From a virus: 40,747 nucleotides of DNA. Position 1 is the stretch's first letter. The number at the start of each line of letters is the position of its first letter. Made by a program: the position numbers and the translations under genes. This document shows, in pieces, positions 29,250-40,747 of the stretch. The notes under the pieces are model-generated. The model was not told the origin of the DNA and searched no databases. It saw only the letters and a list, made by a program, of their open reading frames with translations. Location: the IMG/VR virus record IMGVR_UViG_3300047483_000493, positions 1 to 40,747 of that record; one strand, written 5' to 3'.

Positions 29250-30893
<1,644 letters not shown>

Positions 30894-31310: not shown

Positions 31311-33818
31311 TTAGAAACTAAAGAATTTTTCAGCAGTTTTTTGTTCACTCATTACCTCACCCCAACTTAATGCATTGTAAAAATCTTGTAATTTACCTTT
31401 TAATTCTGCTTCGAAGATTCGATTATGATCTACATAAGTTGAAATGAAATCAACAATTTCTTTAGGGTCTTCGTAACCAGTAAATCCTAAACCATCAATT
31501 CCTAATGGATTGTTTTTAAGATACACCCACTTAATTTTATCACCATCCTTCATCGGTGAATATTTAAATGGAGCGTTAAAATGTTTCAAACAATCATTGT
31601 AAAGAATTGCTGCTTTAACGTGTGCAGGAACTCCTTTTTCTAATTGAAATAATTGTCTTTTCTTTGGTAGATACTTTGATAAGTTTTTAACTGCAGAGTT
31701 CTTTGCAATTTCACTAACCGGTCTTTCCATCATACTCTTTTTGAATGCAAGAATAAATGCTGTGATTTCTTCCTCTGGTTTACTTCGTAGAATATCAATT
31801 AAGACAGTTCCCATACATTCCTGAAATGCTTTAGGGAATGATGAACGTTTAACATCCAATCCTTTAACATCTAATTTATCAGTTGCAATACCATTGTTTG
31901 AAATAATCCATTGTGCATATCGTTTCTTTGCAATCCAAATACCTGCACGAGCAACGTATTCTTTTTTAATTTCTAATCGGTGATTTTGAACATTAAAGAA
32001 TTTATCACATAAAATATCGTAAAATTGATTTAGGTAATCTTGAACTTCACCTGCAATACCATCTACCAACACAGCAACTTCACTATCTGGCATCTGTTTC
32101 CAATCTTTATGTCTATGGTCTAAAAGTGGAACTGCCGAGAAGAATACAGAATCGGTATCAATATAGATGTTTGAATCCACATCTTTCGTTCCTAATTCTT
32201 TGTTGTATTTGATGTTCCCCATATTCGCCGTGTTCTTAATAACCGTTTGGCCCGTAGTTGTAACTGCCTCCGCATTATCAACATCGTAAAACCGAAAGGC
32301 AGGAAGGCCAAGAACACCATAAAGAGAGTTAAGAAGAATTTTTTGAACCAACTGTCTTTTTCCGTAAAAGGCATATTTTTCTTTATCACCCTCCTGACCG
32401 TATTTCTTTTCCAATTTTCTAAATTCAACCCTTTCATTAAACCAAATATCTAATATCTCGGGAATACATCCCATTTTGTCTTTACGATATAAAACTCCGT
32501 TTGATGATATTGTTAAATCACCTTCTTTAATATATCTATCTAAATTATCTCTGGAAATTCTATCATCACCCATTTGGTAATAATCAACTTCTTTTTTCAT
32601 AAACTTCTGCACATCCCAATCCTCAACTTTATTAACCTTAGTTTCAGGTGAAATGTTTAAGGTCATAATGATTGATGGATATAGTGAGGTTAAGTCCAAG
32701 TCATACACCCAATCATATTTACCCACAATCGGGTCTTTTACATACGCACCGATAAACTTTTCTTCTCCTGCCTCTTTTAATGCTGCAAGTTTTTCTTTTC
32801 TATCTGCCGGTTTGTTTGGTGCAACCAATCCTTTACGTTTAAGAAAACATAACAATGCACCCTCCAAATATTTTGAAGAATATACGAAATCCTCATATGG
32901 AACGTGTCCTGCATGACATATACCTCGACATAAATCAATGAATTGTAATTTCTTATCTAACTCTACTACGATTTCAACATCGACTAAGTTATACTCAATG
33001 AACTTTTCAATATCTTCATTAAATAAATCATCCAATGAACCTTGATACTCAATCTTACCTTTACCTAATTCAATCGTTCCGATAGTATCCAAACGATAAT
33101 TCGGTAATTCGTTATAGTTAAATTTCTTATATAATTCTAAATAATCTAAACAACTTACACCTGCAAAGAACCAACGATTACGATATGGTGAATAGAACGC
33201 TTGGCCAATTGGTGATAATCTTTTTGCGTGTTGTTCTCCTAAGATACGTTTGATACGATTAAAAAGATAGGGAATATCGAAATTATCAATATTCCAACCA
33301 GTTAAAACATCGGGAGCAATTCCTTCATAAAGTTCTAAGAACTTCATACACAAATCTCTCTCATCTTTAAATGGTAAAATGATTGCCTTATCCGTTTTAC
33401 GTTCGGTCATCTTACCTTTTTTATCCATAATCAATACCCAATACTGATTAGTGATATTATCTTGTAAACCGATTGCAGTTAATTCATTCTTAGCTTCTTC
33501 AACATTCGGTAGACCAGATTCCATCTCAACCTCAATATCGAATGTCATTGTTACGATACCTTCAGATGGTAAATCAGATTCGGTATAAGTATCTACCAAT
33601 ACTCTGGTAGTTTCAGGTACATCTGATTCAAATAAATTAGGATCATCTCCTTTAAATTTGTAGATTTTGGTAAGTTTATCACCATAGATAGAACGGAATG
33701 TTCCATTCGTTGCAGGTTCATATGCGTAACGAGTGTATGGAAATGTTCTGTATCCTAAATGATCATCCCATAAATGGACAGTATTTTTCTCTCGTTGAAA
33801 ATAGACGTTTTTATACAA
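31311..33818 (-). CDS. 43: DNA polymerase, family B (gp43-like)
   Basis: This protein has 835 residues, a little shorter than T4 gp43 (898). TMTFDIEVEMES near residue 110 is exonuclease motif I; LTGWNIDNFDIPYL and YNLVDVEIVVEL are exonuclease II and III. DLDLTSLYPSIIM near 370 is polymerase motif A, KILLNSLYGVLGLPAF near 490 motif B, and IYIDTDSVFFSA near 555 motif C. It is an active-looking replicative polymerase with proofreading. The start is a TTG at 33818: in the same frame a TAA lies a few codons upstream and no ATG precedes the first conserved block. A promoter lies at 33842-33873. Confidence 0.96.
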   Translation of the reverse strand: MYKNVYFQREKNTVHLWDDHLGYRTFPYTRYAYEPATNGTFRSIYGDKLTKIYKFKGDDPNLFESDVPETTRVLVDTYTESDLPSEGIVTMTFDIEVEMESGLPNVEEAKNELTAIGLQDNITNQYWVLIMDKKGKMTERKTDKAIILPFKDERDLCMKFLELYEGIAPDVLTGWNIDNFDIPYLFNRIKRILGEQHAKRLSPIGQAFYSPYRNRWFFAGVSCLDYLELYKKFNYNELPNYRLDTIGTIELGKGKIEYQGSLDDLFNEDIEKFIEYNLVDVEIVVELDKKLQFIDLCRGICHAGHVPYEDFVYSSKYLEGALLCFLKRKGLVAPNKPADRKEKLAALKEAGEEKFIGAYVKDPIVGKYDWVYDLDLTSLYPSIIMTLNISPETKVNKVEDWDVQKFMKKEVDYYQMGDDRISRDNLDRYIKEGDLTISSNGVLYRKDKMGCIPEILDIWFNERVEFRKLEKKYGQEGDKEKYAFYGKRQLVQKILLNSLYGVLGLPAFRFYDVDNAEAVTTTGQTVIKNTANMGNIKYNKELGTKDVDSNIYIDTDSVFFSAVPLLDHRHKDWKQMPDSEVAVLVDGIAGEVQDYLNQFYDILCDKFFNVQNHRLEIKKEYVARAGIWIAKKRYAQWIISNNGIATDKLDVKGLDVKRSSFPKAFQECMGTVLIDILRSKPEEEITAFILAFKKSMMERPVSEIAKNSAVKNLSKYLPKKRQLFQLEKGVPAHVKAAILYNDCLKHFNAPFKYSPMKDGDKIKWVYLKNNPLGIDGLGFTGYEDPKEIVDFISTYVDHNRIFEAELKGKLQDFYNALSWGEVMSEQKTAEKFFSF

Positions 33819-33841: not shown

Positions 33842-33873
33842 CAAAGATACGAAAAAGATTTCGTATTTCCAAA
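33842..33873 (-). promoter_or_regulatory. Bacteroidota-type promoter for the DNA polymerase
   Basis: The minus strand carries TTTGGAAAT, a 20-base spacer counted from TTTG, and TATCTTTG, which fits TAnnTTTG. The -33 element overlaps one arm of the inverted repeat at 33871-33905. The polymerase start at 33818 lies about 24 bases after the -7 element. Confidence 0.75.
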
Positions 33874-33905
33874 TGATTTTGATGATTTAATTATCAAAAT
33901 CATTT
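33871..33905. repeat. 13-bp perfect inverted repeat at the end of the DUF262-HNH gene
   Basis: AAATGATTTTGAT (33871-33883) and ATCAAAATCATTT (33893-33905) are exact reverse complements around a nine-base loop. The structure includes the DUF262-HNH stop codon and overlaps the -33 element of the polymerase promoter by three bases. No T-tract follows on the minus strand, so it is not a standard terminator. It could be an operator or an mRNA 3' stabiliser. Confidence 0.6.
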
Positions 33906-35377
33906 TCATCAAATTCATCTAAAGTTATTTCATTTTCATTCAATGGTTTATCATTTTCATGAACTTCCTTATGACATGGTTTGTGTAATATAACCATATT
34001 GGCAACTTCGTTTGGACCTCCTTTAGAATATTTTTTAAGGTGGTGAGCCTCATCTCCAATATAAACTCTCTTACCACAATGAGGACAGATTGAATCCTGA
34101 TTTAATAATACCTCCCAACGTTGTAATTTATTTATATTTCTGCTTAATTCTCGAAGTTGAATACCAGACGATTCATTAAATTTTTCCAAATCGCCATTGA
34201 CATTCTTTAATTGCTGTTGTAAATAAAAATCTGTTTCGTTTGATAATGTAATGATAACATCTTTATCATCTCGTCTGGCCATATCAGTAATCCACCACGA
34301 TTCTTTAACTCCGATAGTAACTTTACCTTTTGATTTCATAAAATATTTATACATTGTATTAAAATATACAAATAATTTATCATAATCAGTAATCAATACA
34401 TCATACTCTTTTCGTAAATCAATTAAAATATACATTAATAAACGAATTGAACCTTTACCATATTCTTTAACTGCAGTTGGTGGTATTGCTTCAATGAATT
34501 TATCGATATCATTTATAGTCTTAGTAAATTTTAAATCTAATGATGATTTACAAAGGGATTCCAAATCTTTTTTATTTACTTTTTTTGGACCAATTTTATA
34601 ATAATAATACAATCTAAGAATTAAATCAGCTGCCGTAAATCTATTAGTTTCAATTCCAACTTTATCAAAATTGATAGTATCATTCCATTTTCGTGCTTGT
34701 TCGTATAACGCTGATTCGGTTGCTAATAAAATTTCGATATTCACTAAATTAGTGGAACCAGTATTCAAATCTTTAAATAATTGTCTAATTTCTTCTTCAG
34801 TTCCCTCATATAATACAACTGGTAAATATGTTGAATAAAATACATCTTCGATTAATTCCTTACCATTAGGAAGTTCTTCTACGATTTGTTTATAGGTTAA
34901 TCCGGAAATATCTACTTTTAATTTAAATTTGCCGGTAATAAAAGTTCCTTTACCTAACGCAAATTCGTTTGTAATAAATTTTATTAATGTAGACCAGCGT
35001 TGTTGACCATCTATAATTTCTAAAATATCCTCTTCTCTACGATATGAAAAATATAAGGGATTTGTTAATTGATTGTTAAATATTGCCTTAATGATTGATT
35101 GTTTACCTTTGAGGTCTTTAACAAATTTTCTTTGAAATCTAGTTGGTATTACTATTTTATTTGAAATATTTTCAAAATTGATAGTATCAATTTTATCACA
35201 CTTACCCATTGTTAAATCAGCCAAAGACATACCATTGTTTTTATTAGGCTCGCCACGATACATACGAATATCAAATCCTTGTTTGACTTGTAAACGTTGT
35301 CTAATTGTCTTTCCACCTACATTTAATGTTAGTTCATCTGAAGTTAAATACCCTAATCCTGTTTTAAATTTTTCCAT
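33887..35377 (-). CDS. DUF262 (ParB-like) plus HNH nuclease, GmrSD-like
   Basis: This protein has 496 residues. The N-terminal domain shows the DUF262 pattern: VIPTRFQRKFVKDLKGKQSII near residue 77, then ILEIIDGQQRWSTLIKFI (DGQQR at 123-127), then FKDLNTGSTNLVNIEILLA near 201, which is the GmrS-type nucleotide-binding fold. A long helical middle follows. The C-terminus is HNH: CPHCGKRVY (Cys431, Cys434), then EAHHLKKYSKGGPNEVANMVILHKPCH. DUF262-HNH proteins include type IV restriction enzymes that cut modified DNA. On a phage it may attack competing phages or act on its own modified genome. It has its own promoter (35412-35443). Confidence 0.82.
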   Translation of the reverse strand: MEKFKTGLGYLTSDELTLNVGGKTIRQRLQVKQGFDIRMYRGEPNKNNGMSLADLTMGKCDKIDTINFENISNKIVIPTRFQRKFVKDLKGKQSIIKAIFNNQLTNPLYFSYRREEDILEIIDGQQRWSTLIKFITNEFALGKGTFITGKFKLKVDISGLTYKQIVEELPNGKELIEDVFYSTYLPVVLYEGTEEEIRQLFKDLNTGSTNLVNIEILLATESALYEQARKWNDTINFDKVGIETNRFTAADLILRLYYYYKIGPKKVNKKDLESLCKSSLDLKFTKTINDIDKFIEAIPPTAVKEYGKGSIRLLMYILIDLRKEYDVLITDYDKLFVYFNTMYKYFMKSKGKVTIGVKESWWITDMARRDDKDVIITLSNETDFYLQQQLKNVNGDLEKFNESSGIQLRELSRNINKLQRWEVLLNQDSICPHCGKRVYIGDEAHHLKKYSKGGPNEVANMVILHKPCHKEVHENDKPLNENEITLDEFDENDFDN

Positions 35378-35411
35378 TTATTTTAAGTTTTATATCTCTT
35401 AATCTTATATC

Positions 35412-35443
35412 CAAATATACAAATAATTTTTTACATTTCCAAA
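35412..35443 (-). promoter_or_regulatory. Bacteroidota-type promoter for the DUF262-HNH gene
   Basis: The minus strand reads TTTGGAAAT, a 20-base spacer counted from TTTG, and TATATTTG. The ATG at 35377 follows a 34-base A-rich stretch. It is an exact match to both elements. Confidence 0.75.
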
Positions 35444-35461
35444 TAAAAAGGTATTTATTTT

Positions 35462-36301
35462 TTAAAATTTATAAATTCCACCAACATTCCAAAATAAAAT
35501 AGTTCCTTCAATTTCATCAATGTTTTCTTCTAACCACTTCCATTGTTTAATATCCCAAAATTGATTACAAGGGAATGGTGCTGAATAGCCTTCCAATCTA
35601 TCCTCAAAAAGATATTCTGATTTTCTTATATTTAATGGAATTGGAATACCACTTCGTTTAAGTGTTTTGTTAATTGAACTTTCAGATGATACACACGTTG
35701 TCCAAACTTTTCTCTTTACTTTTGGAAAAAATTCTTTTAATTCTTCTCTATAATAACCTCTTACTAAACCTGCTAAGGTCACACCACTACCCGATGATAC
35801 AACTAAATTATCAAAATGTGTAAATGGTTGAATTCTATCTGCAAGGTAATCTTTGTAGAAATCGTGGTCAAAAGCGTAAGGTAGCATTTGCCATCCATTT
35901 TCAGATGCTATCTTCTTTAGTGAATTATACATAATTTGCATCATATTGGGTCTGATTGGATTCATATGAACCTTTGGAAACATTTCCTTAATCATACTCA
36001 AATATTCTTGTGAGATTTTCTTTGAATCAGGATATGATACATGAAATTCGATATCCAAATCTTCACAAATTGCTGCTAGTGCCCAACCTGTCCAACTTCC
36101 ATCTACTGAAAGGTGGGTTAATGGTTTAGATTTATCTACATACTTTTTTACTAATTCGTATAATGCTGCTACTTTTCCCCACGGAGGTAATAGTTGTCCA
36201 TCACCCATCAAATCATCTCTTTTTACCCACACTTCTCTACCTTTAATATGGTAAAGTTCTAATGGAGTATCTTCGTTCAATCCTTTCAATCCTAAATCCA
36301 T
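35462..36301 (-). CDS. PLP-dependent enzyme, fold type II (ACC deaminase/cysteine synthase-like)
   Basis: This protein has 279 residues. LELYHIKGREVWVKRDDLMGDG near the start and PPWGKVAALYELV near residue 39 give the family opening, with the lysine of WGKV as candidate PLP anchor. LTHLSVDGSWTGWALAAIC near 62 replaces the usual SNHGRA block. VVSSGSGVTLAGLVRGYY near 165 is the phosphate-binding glycine loop. FWNVGGIYKF at the end corresponds to the tryptophan/glycine end block. The enzyme is shorter than typical (about 330). Its start overlaps the asparagine-synthase-like gene by 10 bases, so the two act together. The substrate is unknown; amino-acid side chains or a modified base precursor are options. 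Confidence 0.75.
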   Translation of the reverse strand: MDLGLKGLNEDTPLELYHIKGREVWVKRDDLMGDGQLLPPWGKVAALYELVKKYVDKSKPLTHLSVDGSWTGWALAAICEDLDIEFHVSYPDSKKISQEYLSMIKEMFPKVHMNPIRPNMMQIMYNSLKKIASENGWQMLPYAFDHDFYKDYLADRIQPFTHFDNLVVSSGSGVTLAGLVRGYYREELKEFFPKVKRKVWTTCVSSESSINKTLKRSGIPIPLNIRKSEYLFEDRLEGYSAPFPCNQFWDIKQWKWLEENIDEIEGTILFWNVGGIYKF

Positions 36302-37797
36302 TGGTATATCCCTCCTGCGTTTGATGTTAATTCTCCTTTCATTTTTCTATGAGAGAATCCATGTATTTTTTCAAAATTATCACCGATAACGTTAATCATT
36401 TTTTTTCTATTCTTAAAATTGATATTCGGGTCATTTAAGATAATTTCTTCTATGTATTGTTTAAAGTTAGTTCCTTTTTGGAATGCCCTCTTTTCTTGGT
36501 CTAATATCTCATCTGGTAATTTTCCTCTAAATGCATTTGCAAGTGGTAATTTCCATTGTCCACCTTTACAAAGAAATTCATCAGTTAAGTTCGTAGTATA
36601 GTTTAAGAAATCAGTATCAAAGAATGGACATCTTAATTCGATTGTTCCATAATTCATAAAGATAGTATTTCCTCTTAGTAAATTTCCGTAGTATTGTTTT
36701 TCAAATAATTTTTTACGGACATCACTCCAATCTGGTTTCTTACTGAACATACGAAAAGTTCCATATGAACCATATGATTCATCACTACCCTCACCACTAA
36801 ATGCTACTTTGATTCCATCACTTGCCATTTGTTCTGCAATGAATGATTGTAAAATACCTACTTCCATTTGAACGGTTGATGGGTATTCAATTACTTTAAT
36901 TGAATCTAAGAATCTTTGTTTGATTATCTCATCGTTTTTAGGCACGAATACCTCAATCAATTCTACTCCTAAATACTTTGCACATACTCTTGCCTTTTGT
37001 AAATCTTTTGAGGTTTCATCAAATGCAATGGTATATGCTTTTAAGTTAGGAATTCGTTGTGAAAGTAAATAAGTAATAACTGCAGAATCAATACCACCAC
37101 TCAAAGATGTTGCAATCGGAACATCTGCCAATAATCTTTTATCTACCGCACGTTCTAATAATTTAAAAGTAGTATCTCTAACCTCATCATGTGATTCAAC
37201 TTTCGTTGGTTCGGATGAAAATTGGAAATAATAATTAGAATGAATAGTAAGTTTATCAGTATCTAAATCAATTTCAACTAAACTATTTTTTGGAACAAAT
37301 TTAATATCCGAAGTTTTATGCTGAGTAGTAATTGCTTTCAATTCACTTGCTACAATATATTGGTTTGTATTATAGATGTAAAGTGGTAATTTACCAACCC
37401 AATCTCTTGATAATATCAATTTATTATTATCGTAGATGATGAATGAAAACATTCCATCTAATCTTTTTAATTCACCTTCTTTATATAAAAATAGAATAAT
37501 TTCTGAATCTGAATTAGATTTGAATACATACCCACGTTCTTCGTATTCTTTACGCAACGTTGGGTAATTCCAAATCTCACCATTTACAACTAATTGAACA
37601 CCATCGTATTCCATCGGTTGATTACCTAATGGAGATGTATCATTAATTGATAAACGATTATGACCTAAAATAATATGTTTATCTCCATACTTAAATTCTC
37701 TAATACCGCGATTATCTCTACCACGATGTTCGATAGTTTCAAGCATTTCATTGACATCTTCTTTATTATAACCTATGGTTGCTACGATTCCACACAT
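36292..37797 (-). CDS. Asparagine-synthase-like glutamine amidotransferase
   Basis: This 501-residue protein starts MCGIVATIG with the catalytic Cys2 of an N-terminal-nucleophile glutaminase. LGHNRLSINDTSPLGNQPM and VVNGEIWNYPTLR near residue 70 finish that domain. PIATSLSGGIDSAVITYLL near 225 is the ATP pyrophosphatase loop, and IKVAFSGEGSDESYGSY near 330 the second signature. IELRCPFFDTDFLNY and LPDEILDQEKRAFQKG are C-terminal blocks. It would move an amide nitrogen from glutamine to an acid activated by ATP. In phages with unusual DNA it might amidate a base or side chain instead of aspartate. It follows the TS-like gene by one base. Confidence 0.88.
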   Translation of the reverse strand: MCGIVATIGYNKEDVNEMLETIEHRGRDNRGIREFKYGDKHIILGHNRLSINDTSPLGNQPMEYDGVQLVVNGEIWNYPTLRKEYEERGYVFKSNSDSEIILFLYKEGELKRLDGMFSFIIYDNNKLILSRDWVGKLPLYIYNTNQYIVASELKAITTQHKTSDIKFVPKNSLVEIDLDTDKLTIHSNYYFQFSSEPTKVESHDEVRDTTFKLLERAVDKRLLADVPIATSLSGGIDSAVITYLLSQRIPNLKAYTIAFDETSKDLQKARVCAKYLGVELIEVFVPKNDEIIKQRFLDSIKVIEYPSTVQMEVGILQSFIAEQMASDGIKVAFSGEGSDESYGSYGTFRMFSKKPDWSDVRKKLFEKQYYGNLLRGNTIFMNYGTIELRCPFFDTDFLNYTTNLTDEFLCKGGQWKLPLANAFRGKLPDEILDQEKRAFQKGTNFKQYIEEIILNDPNINFKNRKKMINVIGDNFEKIHGFSHRKMKGELTSNAGGIYQWI

Positions 37798-37798
37798 A

Positions 37799-38497
37799 TT
37801 ATCTATTTAATACTTCTAATAACTTATGAGTTTTTTTAGTTTCATCATTCATCTTACCGATATGACAAGAACATGCTAAAACTGATACCTTTCCTAATTC
37901 CATATTACTTTCTTTCGCTAAGAATTTACCCATCTCAACTAACGCAGTATAATCTGCATAACCTGATTTCGATACTCTATTTGAACGAATGATTGATGTT
38001 AGGTAGATTTTACCATTACGAGGTTTAATATCAATTGCTAACATACAAGGTTGTGAGTATGGATTTCTAGCATCTCTACTCGGGTCAAAGATAATCAATT
38101 CACATCTTTTAACTGCTTTACCAGTTTTTAAGATTTTAATTACGTTTTCTACCTGATTGAATGTTCCTTGCCATGCAACCATTCTACCCCAATATGAATC
38201 ACTCCATTTATCTTTGATAAATTTATATTCCAATCCTTCTTCTGCTTGAAAAAATGGACTATCTGAAACAAATGGTTGTGGTTCTAAGAATGTTACGGTC
38301 TTTGCATAATCAATTCTATCATCACCCATAATTTCTCTAAAATGAGGGTCAAACCAATCATCAGATTGAAATTCTGTGATTTCAGTCATCACATTTAATT
38401 CTTCGGTTAAATCACCTACTTTTACTCCGTTTGCAATAAGATGTTTAGATACCTTTACCCATGCATCGCCGGGAGATGTTGCTTCAATTACTGTCAT
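37799..38497 (-). CDS. Divergent thymidylate synthase / pyrimidine hydroxymethylase-like protein
   Basis: This protein has 232 residues. The C-terminal half matches the thymidylate synthase core: NPYSQPCMLAIDIKPRNGKIY with Cys151 in the position of the catalytic cysteine, then SIIRSNRVSKSGYADYTALVEMGKFLAKE (the RS arginine and helix), then LGKVSVLACSCHIGKM with a histidine in place of the HxY block. The N-terminal half is unusual and the pyrimidine-selecting Asn/Asp is not clearly conserved. It may make 5-hydroxymethyl pyrimidine or another modified pyrimidine. It is first in the operon with the amidotransferase and PLP enzyme, behind a promoter at 38528-38559. Confidence 0.6.
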   Translation of the reverse strand: MTVIEATSPGDAWVKVSKHLIANGVKVGDLTEELNVMTEITEFQSDDWFDPHFREIMGDDRIDYAKTVTFLEPQPFVSDSPFFQAEEGLEYKFIKDKWSDSYWGRMVAWQGTFNQVENVIKILKTGKAVKRCELIIFDPSRDARNPYSQPCMLAIDIKPRNGKIYLTSIIRSNRVSKSGYADYTALVEMGKFLAKESNMELGKVSVLACSCHIGKMNDETKKTHKLLEVLNR

Positions 38498-38527
38498 ATT
38501 ATTTTATTTATAGTTTTAGTATCCTAA

Positions 38528-38559
38528 CAAAGATACTATATTTTTTTAACATTTCCAAA
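38528..38559 (-). promoter_or_regulatory. Bacteroidota-type promoter for the TS-like operon
   Basis: The minus strand has TTTGGAAAT, a 20-base spacer counted from TTTG, and TATCTTTG. It lies immediately after the stop codon of the ABC-GNAT gene and 31 bases before the ATG at 38497. It would drive the TS-like, amidotransferase and PLP genes. Confidence 0.75.
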
Positions 38560-39732
38560 CTAAAATTGAAAAAATTTATTTAACATTTTTTTATTTACAA
38601 TATTATTATTACGCATTTCTGAAATAGGTTGTAATAATTCATCATATCCTTCTATTGGGTTTCCAACATATTCATGACAATATGATGCTCTTAATTTCAA
38701 CATTGTATATGCATTTTTTTGTAAATTTTTATCAGTTCGGATTTTACCATTAAATGGTGTTGGTTTCCAATTTGGATTATTTTCTCTATATTCACCTAAT
38801 GCAGGATTTACTGTTTTAGTATAATATTTTGCATTAGTATTTTTTATAATTCCTGCACAAAATTCAGATACTTTACTACCAATACCCATTCCTTGATAAT
38901 CTGGATTAACTACAATCCTGCTTTCTCTAAAAGATTTTTCTACACTATTTCTACCAATATGTCTTCCAATTACATTTATTGCAACGGGGTTACCATTCCA
39001 TTCAAACAATAAAAAAATGTAAGTGTTATTTACATTTTCTGTTAGATAATGATGTTTTTTGAAGAAATCCCAAGCTTTAGGTTCAACCCTACTAATTTGA
39101 AGTTCGATGTTTGGTCTTCCTTGCCGAAGCCATTCACCTCTTTCGAGTGTGCCTCCTTTTTGGGGTGAAAGTGTCCAATCAGGCATCAACCACTGCATTA
39201 TATCGTTATGACACGATGCTAGAATAATCTTTTTATTTTCTCTACGAATATATTTTTGTAATGCAAACGACATTGCCTTTGCAACATCTCTATCTACTAC
39301 TGATGTATATTCATCTATTAAAATAGTATCGCCATCTTTTGCAGAAGAAACTAAATATGCTAATTCAGCTCTATATTGTTCTCCGTTACTTAATAAGTGA
39401 AAAGGACGTAACCATGTTGGTATGGATGATAATCCCATTGATGTTAAAACCTTTCCTGCTTCACTCGGTTCTAACCAATCAAAATTTGAAATTAATGATT
39501 TTTCACTATCAAACTGAATTTTATTGATACCACCTAATTCTTTTAATATAGTAGATTTACCACTACCACTGCTACCATAAATGACACCAATATTCCAATC
39601 AAATGAGTTTAGAGATGAAATATCCATTGGAATAATTACTCTCGTTTCCTCTTTGTTTTGAATATCAAATGTATCATACACATATTGTGTGTATTTATCA
39701 TTTTTGATTGAATGTGATAATTCTATTTGCAT
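38560..39732 (-). CDS. ABC-type ATPase fused to Mom-like GNAT acyltransferase
   Basis: This protein has 390 residues. IGVIYGSSGSGKSTILKEL (Lys59) is Walker A, LLSNGEQYRAELA near residue 113 the ABC signature, TILIDEYTSVVDRD with Asp140-Glu141 Walker B, and SCH near 173 the switch histidine. No membrane segment is present, so it is not a transporter. From about 215, FFKKHHYLTENVNN and SRIVVNPDYQGMGIGSKVSEF (acetyl-CoA loop 280-285) form a GNAT domain. The HHYL block near its start resembles Mom of phage Mu, which modifies adenine in DNA. The fusion suggests ATP-driven DNA tracking with base acylation. It follows the methyltransferase by 4 bases. Confidence 0.75.
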   Translation of the reverse strand: MQIELSHSIKNDKYTQYVYDTFDIQNKEETRVIIPMDISSLNSFDWNIGVIYGSSGSGKSTILKELGGINKIQFDSEKSLISNFDWLEPSEAGKVLTSMGLSSIPTWLRPFHLLSNGEQYRAELAYLVSSAKDGDTILIDEYTSVVDRDVAKAMSFALQKYIRRENKKIILASCHNDIMQWLMPDWTLSPQKGGTLERGEWLRQGRPNIELQISRVEPKAWDFFKKHHYLTENVNNTYIFLLFEWNGNPVAINVIGRHIGRNSVEKSFRESRIVVNPDYQGMGIGSKVSEFCAGIIKNTNAKYYTKTVNPALGEYRENNPNWKPTPFNGKIRTDKNLQKNAYTMLKLRASYCHEYVGNPIEGYDELLQPISEMRNNNIVNKKMLNKFFQF

Positions 39733-39736
39733 TTAA

Positions 39737-40747
39737 TTACATTTTACGAAATATCCATATCGGCTCACAGAATGTTTTATCTTTGGCTTCTTCGTTCTTT
39801 TTCAATTCTTCTTCGGAATATCTTTCTTCATCACCATCTATAATCATTCCTGCCCCGGCAGAACCCGGTCTTTTGGCCATTTCCATACCCAAACACCCTT
39901 GATACTCTGCACCTTCTAAAGTGGAGATAAAATCGTTCATAGGGTTGGTAATTTCTTGTTGTCCTTTACCATCACCTTTTGATGATGCGTAGACATCTGC
40001 AATGTTCACTGCTAAGTAACCACCTTTTTTAATAGTAGGCCAAACATTAGCAATTGTCTTATGTAAGAAGTTTTTATTCCATTCATCGATTGTTTTATAT
40101 CGAACCCAACTTTGAGTATCATCGTATGAATATCTCTCTACGTTGAAATATGGAGGTGAGCTGAATACAATATCAAAATATTCTTTATACTCACTCAAAT
40201 CTAAATCTTCAGCAGGGGATTCATAAAAGGTTGATTTCTTTTTGGTTTCAAAAAATCCATTATGTTTTTCGTAAAAATCTGCTTGTTCTCTATAAATTGG
40301 ATGATTTTCAGTACGAGGGTCTATACCCACAAAATGTTCTCCAAATTCAGATGCATAAAAACCACATAATCTATCACCCCATCCTGCAGAAATATCTAAT
40401 ACGTTTTTTGCTTCAACGTAATCATATAATACTTTTGCAACATTTGGTTTAAATTGCGAACAAATATACTTTCGTAGGGATAAGCAAGTTCTTAGTGTGT
40501 TTTTGGTAATTTCATCAAACTTTAAGGTATATAATCCACCCATAAGTGAGAACATAAAATCAGGGTTATTCCAAGTACGGTATGGCCCAGGCGAGACCGT
40601 TCCATCTACACTCCAACGATTTGCTTGTTGAAAGTAATTAGATGCGGCGTTACCTGTGTTAATACGTCTTACAAATTGATTTTTTCCTTGAAATGTTAAG
40701 GGATATCGAGATTCGGCTGCCTTTCGTGGCACCCAATCACCTTCTGT
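39737..40747 (-). CDS. SPPY-type DNA methyltransferase (N-terminus beyond window)
   Basis: The frame is open to the right edge. A GTG at 40732 gives 331 residues, but in-frame sequence TEGDW continues upstream, so the true start is probably outside. VLDISAGWGDRLCGFYASEFG near residue 111 of the visible part is motif I, FVGIDPRTENH motif II, and DIVFSSPPYFNVERYSYDD near 187 the (S/T)PPY motif IV. GGYLAVNIADVY gives the next strand. It pairs in sequence with the 544-residue methyltransferase at 26820-28454 (GWG, SPPYFN, W-K/R-F acceptor block). It likely methylates an exocyclic amine in DNA, but the base is not determined. The ABC-GNAT gene follows by 4 bases. Confidence 0.82.
   Translation of the reverse strand, partial: TEGDWVPRKAAESRYPLTFQGKNQFVRRINTGNAASNYFQQANRWSVDGTVSPGPYRTWNNPDFMFSLMGGLYTLKFDEITKNTLRTCLSLRKYICSQFKPNVAKVLYDYVEAKNVLDISAGWGDRLCGFYASEFGEHFVGIDPRTENHPIYREQADFYEKHNGFFETKKKSTFYESPAEDLDLSEYKEYFDIVFSSPPYFNVERYSYDDTQSWVRYKTIDEWNKNFLHKTIANVWPTIKKGGYLAVNIADVYASSKGDGKGQQEITNPMNDFISTLEGAEYQGCLGMEMAKRPGSAGAGMIIDGDEERYSEEELKKNEEAKDKTFCEPIWIFRKM

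Follow-up and report, generated by a model that had tools for sequence, protein, structure and literature searches.

A replication-linked phage gene cassette with a predicted role in post-replicative hypermodification of DNA bases

Gene layout at the right end of the window

We analyzed a 40,747-base stretch of virus record IMGVR_UViG_3300047483_000493 (the window), whose right end carries a gene cassette that we predict to act in DNA-base hypermodification. An open reading frame (ORF) listing and domain searches confirmed six adjoining minus-strand ORFs at this end, with the domains named in a first-pass annotation of the same DNA: an SPPY amino-methyltransferase-type protein (MT), an ABC-ATPase-GNAT fusion (ABC-GNAT), a thymidylate synthase (TS)-like protein, an asparagine synthetase (AsnB)-type amide ligase, a pyridoxal phosphate (PLP) enzyme, and a DUF262-HNH nuclease (Table 1). 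Spacing within the group is operon-like: 4 nucleotides (nt) from MT to ABC-GNAT, a 1-nt gap between the TS-like and ligase genes, and a 10-nt overlap of the ligase and PLP genes. The complete MT gene, encoding 410 amino acids (aa), was recovered at L004:1701-2933 in a near-identical 86-kb contig that extends the window. A second SPPY protein, overlooked by the first-pass annotation, is a probable partner of the cassette.

Table 1. Features of the window discussed in the text
Feature	Coordinates	Strand	Matches and remarks
SPPY amino-methyltransferase-type protein (MT)	39737..40747	-	Truncated by window end
TS-like protein, 232 aa	37799..38497	-	PF00303 1.7e-4, below cut-off
AsnB-type glutamine-dependent amide ligase, 501 aa	36292..37797	-	Asn_synthase 1.8e-41, GATase_7 1.9e-31
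Fold-type-II PLP enzyme, phage M6 gp52 family	35462..36301	-	phrog_7093 1e-23; PALP 1.4e-4, below cut-off
Second SPPY protein, 544 aa	26820..28454	-	Homologous to first SPPY protein; downstream of sliding clamp
Family B DNA polymerase (PolB)	31311..33818	-	Marks replication neighborhood
ABC-ATPase-GNAT fusion	38560..39732	-	phrog_11143 3.7e-126; neighbor, outside predicted pathway
DUF262-HNH nuclease	33887..35377	-	GmrSD_N 1.1e-10, HNH 5e-7; neighbor, outside predicted pathway
GroEL-type chaperonin	29250-30884		Between PolB and sliding clamp

Four gene families co-occur beyond chance

Scans of viral contigs returned 49 loci for the TS-like protein, 80 for ABC-GNAT, 30 for the PLP enzyme, and 80 for PolB. 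Loci were dereplicated before profile searches, which left 20 TS-anchored loci with enough flanking sequence. Every one of these encoded an AsnB-type ligase or a PP-loop substitute (20/20) as well as a PLP enzyme (20/20), and an SPPY protein lay near the TS-like gene in 18, whereas ABC-GNAT was present in 2/20 and DUF262-HNH in 1/20. The TS-like, ligase, and PLP genes thus form a tight operon, nearly always accompanied by one or two SPPY proteins. In a second set of 31 PolB-anchored loci, picked irrespective of the cassette, cassette genes were found in 11 of 12 SPPY-positive loci but in none of 19 SPPY-negative loci (Fisher P = 1.4e-7, an optimistic value because the phages are related and kinship was not corrected for). 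Among 23 ABC-GNAT loci, 21 had none of the TS-like, ligase, PLP, or SPPY genes, and in the close relatives L006, L007, L008, and L011 the MT gene stands directly upstream of the TS-like gene with no ABC-GNAT in between. Purifying selection was strong in the pairs tested (ratio of nonsynonymous to synonymous divergence, dN/dS, <0.1). We conclude that TS-like, AsnB-type, PLP, and MT genes are grouped beyond chance, and that ABC-GNAT and DUF262-HNH are not. The first-pass annotation had proposed all six genes as a linked, undescribed DNA modification set and had suggested examining the co-occurrence of four of them (ABC-GNAT, TS-like, ligase, and PLP) across phage genomes; that linkage holds in many phages for the TS-like, ligase, PLP, and SPPY genes, and co-occurrence rules out ABC-GNAT and DUF262-HNH as pathway members.

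Residue changes in the cassette enzymes

Cys151, Arg171, Ser172, and Asp182 are invariant in the TS-like proteins. Cys151 corresponds to the nucleophilic Cys of ThyA, and Asp182 occupies the cytosine-specifying place, where Escherichia coli ThyA has Asn177. The folate site is altered: Arg (Arg174 in the window) or Ala aligns with E. coli Asp169, and Lys, Ser, or Arg aligns, in a less surely aligned region, with Glu58. The protein therefore retains the ThyA nucleophile without Asn177, Asp169, or Glu58, and it does not correspond to a dUMP-type hydroxymethylase with a folate site. In NCBIfam and the PDB, its relatives are methanogen TS and MilA. An AF2 model (mean predicted local distance difference test [pLDDT] score, 77) matched best to AfhB, a phage enzyme that hydroxylates dCMP in a flavin-dependent reaction (Foldseek rank 1-2, E = 1.4e-10), with the CMP hydroxymethylase MilA also among the top matches. 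AfhB carries RSQN and shares with the TS-like protein a TS fold that has lost the folate-site Asp. MilA takes part in nucleoside-antibiotic biosynthesis. Examination of the active site thus supported retention of the catalytic Cys and of a cytosine-type Asp, and because the folate-site Asp and Glu are gone, plain hydroxymethylation of a pyrimidine, as the first-pass annotation had it, is doubtful. We also rejected the TS-like protein as the phage source of dTMP: the related jumbo contigs G002, G003, G004, and G005 carry separate ThyA genes, and the one that we read, in G002, is canonical (PFN, RSVD, and PCH motifs). Synonymous divergence of the TS-like gene from close relatives was low (0.26, against 0.72-0.88 for neighboring genes) but not at larger distances; this is likely a recombined patch, and general constraint is unsupported beyond the close clade.

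The ligase alignment retains the glutamine amidotransferase (GATase) Cys, the PP-loop, the SGEGSDE motif, and the late Lys (K449 motif), and 77 of the 80 ligase ORFs tallied start with MCGI. In asparagine synthetases, the Arg of the TT(I/V)RAS motif serves the aspartate site. Gln takes the place of this Arg in the ligases of the window, L024, L052, phage TurkishDelight, and the type C cassettes described below, as does Asn in that of L173; loss of the Arg disfavors a genuine asparagine synthase. The window and TurkishDelight ligases both belong to phrog_16728. In TurkishDelight the ligase stands between a dcm-type methyltransferase and a CmoA homologue, a row that matches the CmoX-CmoY-CmoA arrangement of Yang et al. 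(PMC12783734); its gp123 and gp125, considered as SPPY homologues, proved to be dcm type and CmoA type. CmoY, a phage AsnB homologue, joins glycine to 5-carboxymethylcytosine in DNA, and GATase-bearing ligases make up the second largest cluster in that study (PMC12783734).

Named-phage relatives of the PLP enzyme are Mesyanzhinovviridae proteins annotated as threonine dehydratase, such as M6 gp52 (~25% identity over 95%). The window enzyme and gp52 share the C-terminal signature PFPCN..(F/W)D.K.WKWL..(I/V).FWN.G, Lys43 is invariant, and a gp52 query matched the locus in the 288-kb relative G002 at 1.9e-20. The cassette thus has the M6-gp52-type PLP enzyme that is a feature of thymidine hypermodification based on 5-hydroxymethyldeoxyuridine (5hmdU), as judged from phrog_7093 and the signature. 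M6 itself encodes aGPT-Pplases, a radical S-adenosylmethionine (SAM) protein, and a kinase; in the related phage SN1, the gp52-type gene lies among annotated aGPT-Pplases, radical SAM, kinase, and pyrimidine hydroxymethylase genes.

The SPPY protein was modeled as a class-I methyltransferase fold with an N-terminal helical domain (pLDDT, 88), and the SPPY motif is retained in nearly all full-length copies. The complete MT protein also weakly matches MADS mad2.

Interchangeable cassettes at the replication locus

The slot between ribonucleotide reductase (RNR) and PolB holds alternative gene sets, which the first-pass annotation had not recognized. In the window and most loci it carries TS-like, ligase, and PLP genes (type A). 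Type B combines the TS-like protein and PLP enzyme with a GATase-less PP-loop ATPase (L036, L042, L044, L045, L046, and L050). Type C, found at loci between L145 and L158, has ligase, 2-hydroxyacid dehydrogenase, and PLP genes without a TS-like gene; in five of its loci, a 756-aa protein with no Pfam or PHROG match (L153:10927-13197) lies between PLP and MT. The remaining types comprise an HD-domain protein, ligase, and GNAT (type D; L173 and L174), PLP alone (type E; L194), and an Asp/Asn-hydroxylase-like protein, a YunG-like protein, PLP, and HD (type F; L199). PLP subtypes are 48% identical whereas the TS-like proteins and ligases are ~80% identical, a sign of exchange. A 710-aa TS-ligase fusion in L049 was set aside because the GATase N terminus, including its Cys, is missing and other genes are split in that contig.

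A PLP profile scan detected a similar operon in unrelated phages that lack this RNR and PolB. Its order in L314, downstream of a sliding clamp and clamp loader, is SPPY, a 167-aa protein, PLP, 2-hydroxyacid dehydrogenase (HADH), SPPY, and ligase, the dehydrogenase standing in for the TS-like protein. An Ignavibacteria metagenome-assembled contig, chromosomal or viral, encodes SPPY, TS-like, PP-loop ATPase, and radical SAM proteins consecutively (L267:4590-8975), the only case of radical SAM beside cassette-type genes and possibly a bacterial counterpart of the cassette. Together, these loci show the non-SPPY members exchanged for 2-hydroxyacid dehydrogenase, GNAT, Asp/Asn-hydroxylase-like, or radical SAM proteins.

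Neighboring genes

ABC-ATPase-GNAT proteins were earlier predicted to be stand-alone DNA modifiers (Iyer/Aravind; PMC7824862). The window ABC-GNAT is a member of that family, with 58% identity to a homologue in Tenacibaculum phage pT24, and it represents a separate system that neighbors the cassette in two contigs only. Given this prediction and its rarity with the cassette, the Mom-like GNAT chemistry that the first-pass annotation had built into the pathway falls outside it. In the cassette-free phages L188, L190, L216, L217, and L229, ABC-GNAT lies directly beside PolB, which suggests that other modification systems may occupy the slot. The window ABC-GNAT also weakly matches MADS mad3 and mad8. 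DUF262-HNH, whose nearest PADLOC models are NsnA and PD-T4-2_A, is possibly a mobile or superinfection-exclusion nuclease. Chaperonins recur in the PolB-clamp slot at ~8 loci.

Comparison with known modification systems

The cassette shares with the 5-(2-aminoethyl)deoxyuridine (5-NedU) thymidine hypermodification system of Pseudomonas phage M6 (Mesyanzhinovviridae) a phrog_7093 PLP enzyme bearing the same signature, a location between RNR and DNA polymerase, and a nearby TS-family protein. It differs in its AsnB-type ligase, its SPPY enzymes, and the cytosine-type Asp of the TS-like protein. In G002, tblastn searches (E = 0.01) found no match to the M6 5hmdU kinase, aGPT-Pplase, or radical SAM protein, although divergent forms could escape; the absence of a dNMP kinase and aGPT-Pplase noted in the first-pass annotation thus extends to this 288-kb relative. 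A dCMP deaminase was detected there.

With the CmoA-CmoX-CmoY system of Synechococcus phage S-B43 (PMC12783734), the cassette has in common an amide ligase homologous to AsnB that adjoins a SAM-type DNA enzyme; membership in phrog_16728 and the lost Arg align it by homology with DNA amide ligases of that system, an activity that is predicted. Instead of CmoA or a C5 "SPPC" CmoX, it has amino-type SPPY, TS-like, and PLP proteins. CmoX and CmoA had no match in G002 (tblastn, E = 0.01), and CmoA was found in 0/8 contigs in a search run without a positive control. We set aside a carboxy-SAM (Cx-SAM) route on these grounds, although Cx-SAM might come from the host. The TS-like protein resembles AfhB and MilA in its TS fold, nucleophilic Cys, and cytosine-type Asp, but it is only 15-17% identical to them over the fold, and the cassette has no glycosyltransferase partner. 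Thus, the cassette shares one enzyme family each with the M6-type and CmoXY systems, yet lacks the defining features of both. It appears to be a form of phage DNA hypermodification that belongs to neither. Our search of open-license papers found no description of this enzyme combination.

Discussion

We propose that these genes constitute a replication-linked phage cassette that probably serves post-replicative hypermodification of DNA bases. From the observed operon structure, co-occurrence, homology, and residue changes, we infer a candidate substrate, order of steps, and final base. The Cys of the TS-like protein would activate the C5 position of a cytosine, probably that of dCMP, through chemistry other than the usual folate route, in the manner of the 5-hydroxy-dCMP (5-hodCMP) synthases, which are TS-superfamily members (PMC13390438). 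The chances that cytosine is the target appear even. The SPPY enzymes would place a SAM-derived group onto the DNA base, and their installing the side-chain handle is a tentative suggestion. The ligase would adenylate a base-borne carboxylate and form an amide with ammonia from glutamine; such a carboxylate is the substrate that we slightly favor. Remodeling of an amino acid carried by the base, such as the decarboxylation proposed for M6 gp52, would fall to the PLP enzyme. No partner is more constant than the SPPY proteins, and the genes that replace one another all act elsewhere on amino acids, amides, or 2-oxo/2-hydroxy acids. The side chain on the base would most simply be SAM-derived or otherwise amino-acid-like, with amidation, decarboxylation, acetylation, or oxidation depending on cassette type. 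A more specific and rather unlikely version has the SPPY enzymes load an exocyclic amine of the DNA base with the 3-amino-3-carboxypropyl (acp) moiety of SAM or a comparable amino-acid group, with the AsnB ligase, PLP enzyme, GNAT, Asp/Asn-hydroxylase-like protein, and 2-hydroxyacid dehydrogenase sculpting that group. To our knowledge, the acp handle has been described for tRNA and rRNA and not for DNA. The modification likely protects against nucleases.

Several observations weigh against DNA-base hypermodification as the function. Some enzymes with RNA or protein substrates also carry the SPPY motif, a fold search with the SPPY protein returned generic class-I methyltransferases only, and L210 and L212 have an SPPY protein with no cassette gene detected. 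The PLP enzyme is distant from gp52, which Lee et al. (2022) reportedly describe as a decarboxylase of a base-borne amino acid. The TS-like model has weak stretches (pLDDT <50 at residues 93-114 and 133-148), so residues mapped there are uncertain. Finally, the ligase exceeds the NCBIfam asparagine synthase cut-off (291.7 versus 267.1).

This last score, and the fact that metabolic genes do occur in phages, would suit ordinary auxiliary metabolism, in which an asparagine synthase, a threonine-dehydratase-like enzyme, and a spare TS boost amino-acid and nucleotide supply. The replaced aspartate-site Arg, the separate canonical ThyA, the kinship of the PLP enzyme to a hypermodification enzyme, and the tight SPPY linkage make such a role quite improbable. 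It is unlikely, too, that the cassette leaves DNA unmodified and instead disturbs host defense signaling or growth through a small molecule or modified nucleotide of its making: MilA, a close structural match, acts on CMP, and neither a glycosyltransferase nor a kinase typical of known DNA pathways is present, but SPPY enzymes and a replication neighborhood in unrelated phages fit DNA better, and the ligase and PLP enzyme each have a precedent in DNA modification.

Modification of the infected cell's tRNA or rRNA by the SPPY, TS-like, ligase, and PLP proteins would accord with the closeness of the SPPY class-I folds to RNA methyltransferases and with the acp and amide groups that occur on tRNA; the location of the genes in a DNA replication neighborhood and the homology of their products to DNA modification enzymes render it very unlikely. 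The six-gene pathway, in which ABC-GNAT would carry out acyl transfer and DUF262-HNH would be the nuclease, draws on the adjacency of all six genes in the window contig and of MT, ABC-GNAT, TS-like, ligase, and PLP genes in L005, a 97% relative. Against the scarcity of both genes at TS-anchored loci and the many ABC-GNAT loci free of the cassette, it is hardly credible.

If DNA-base hypermodification is indeed its function, the cassette would open a third principal chemical route to large DNA modifications, besides hydroxymethyl and carboxymethyl handles, one that many uncultured and jumbo-size phages use and that is assembled from exchangeable enzymes. The TS-like proteins point to a branch of the TS fold with a rebuilt folate site, and the cassette offers a small, testable gene set for a new nucleobase.

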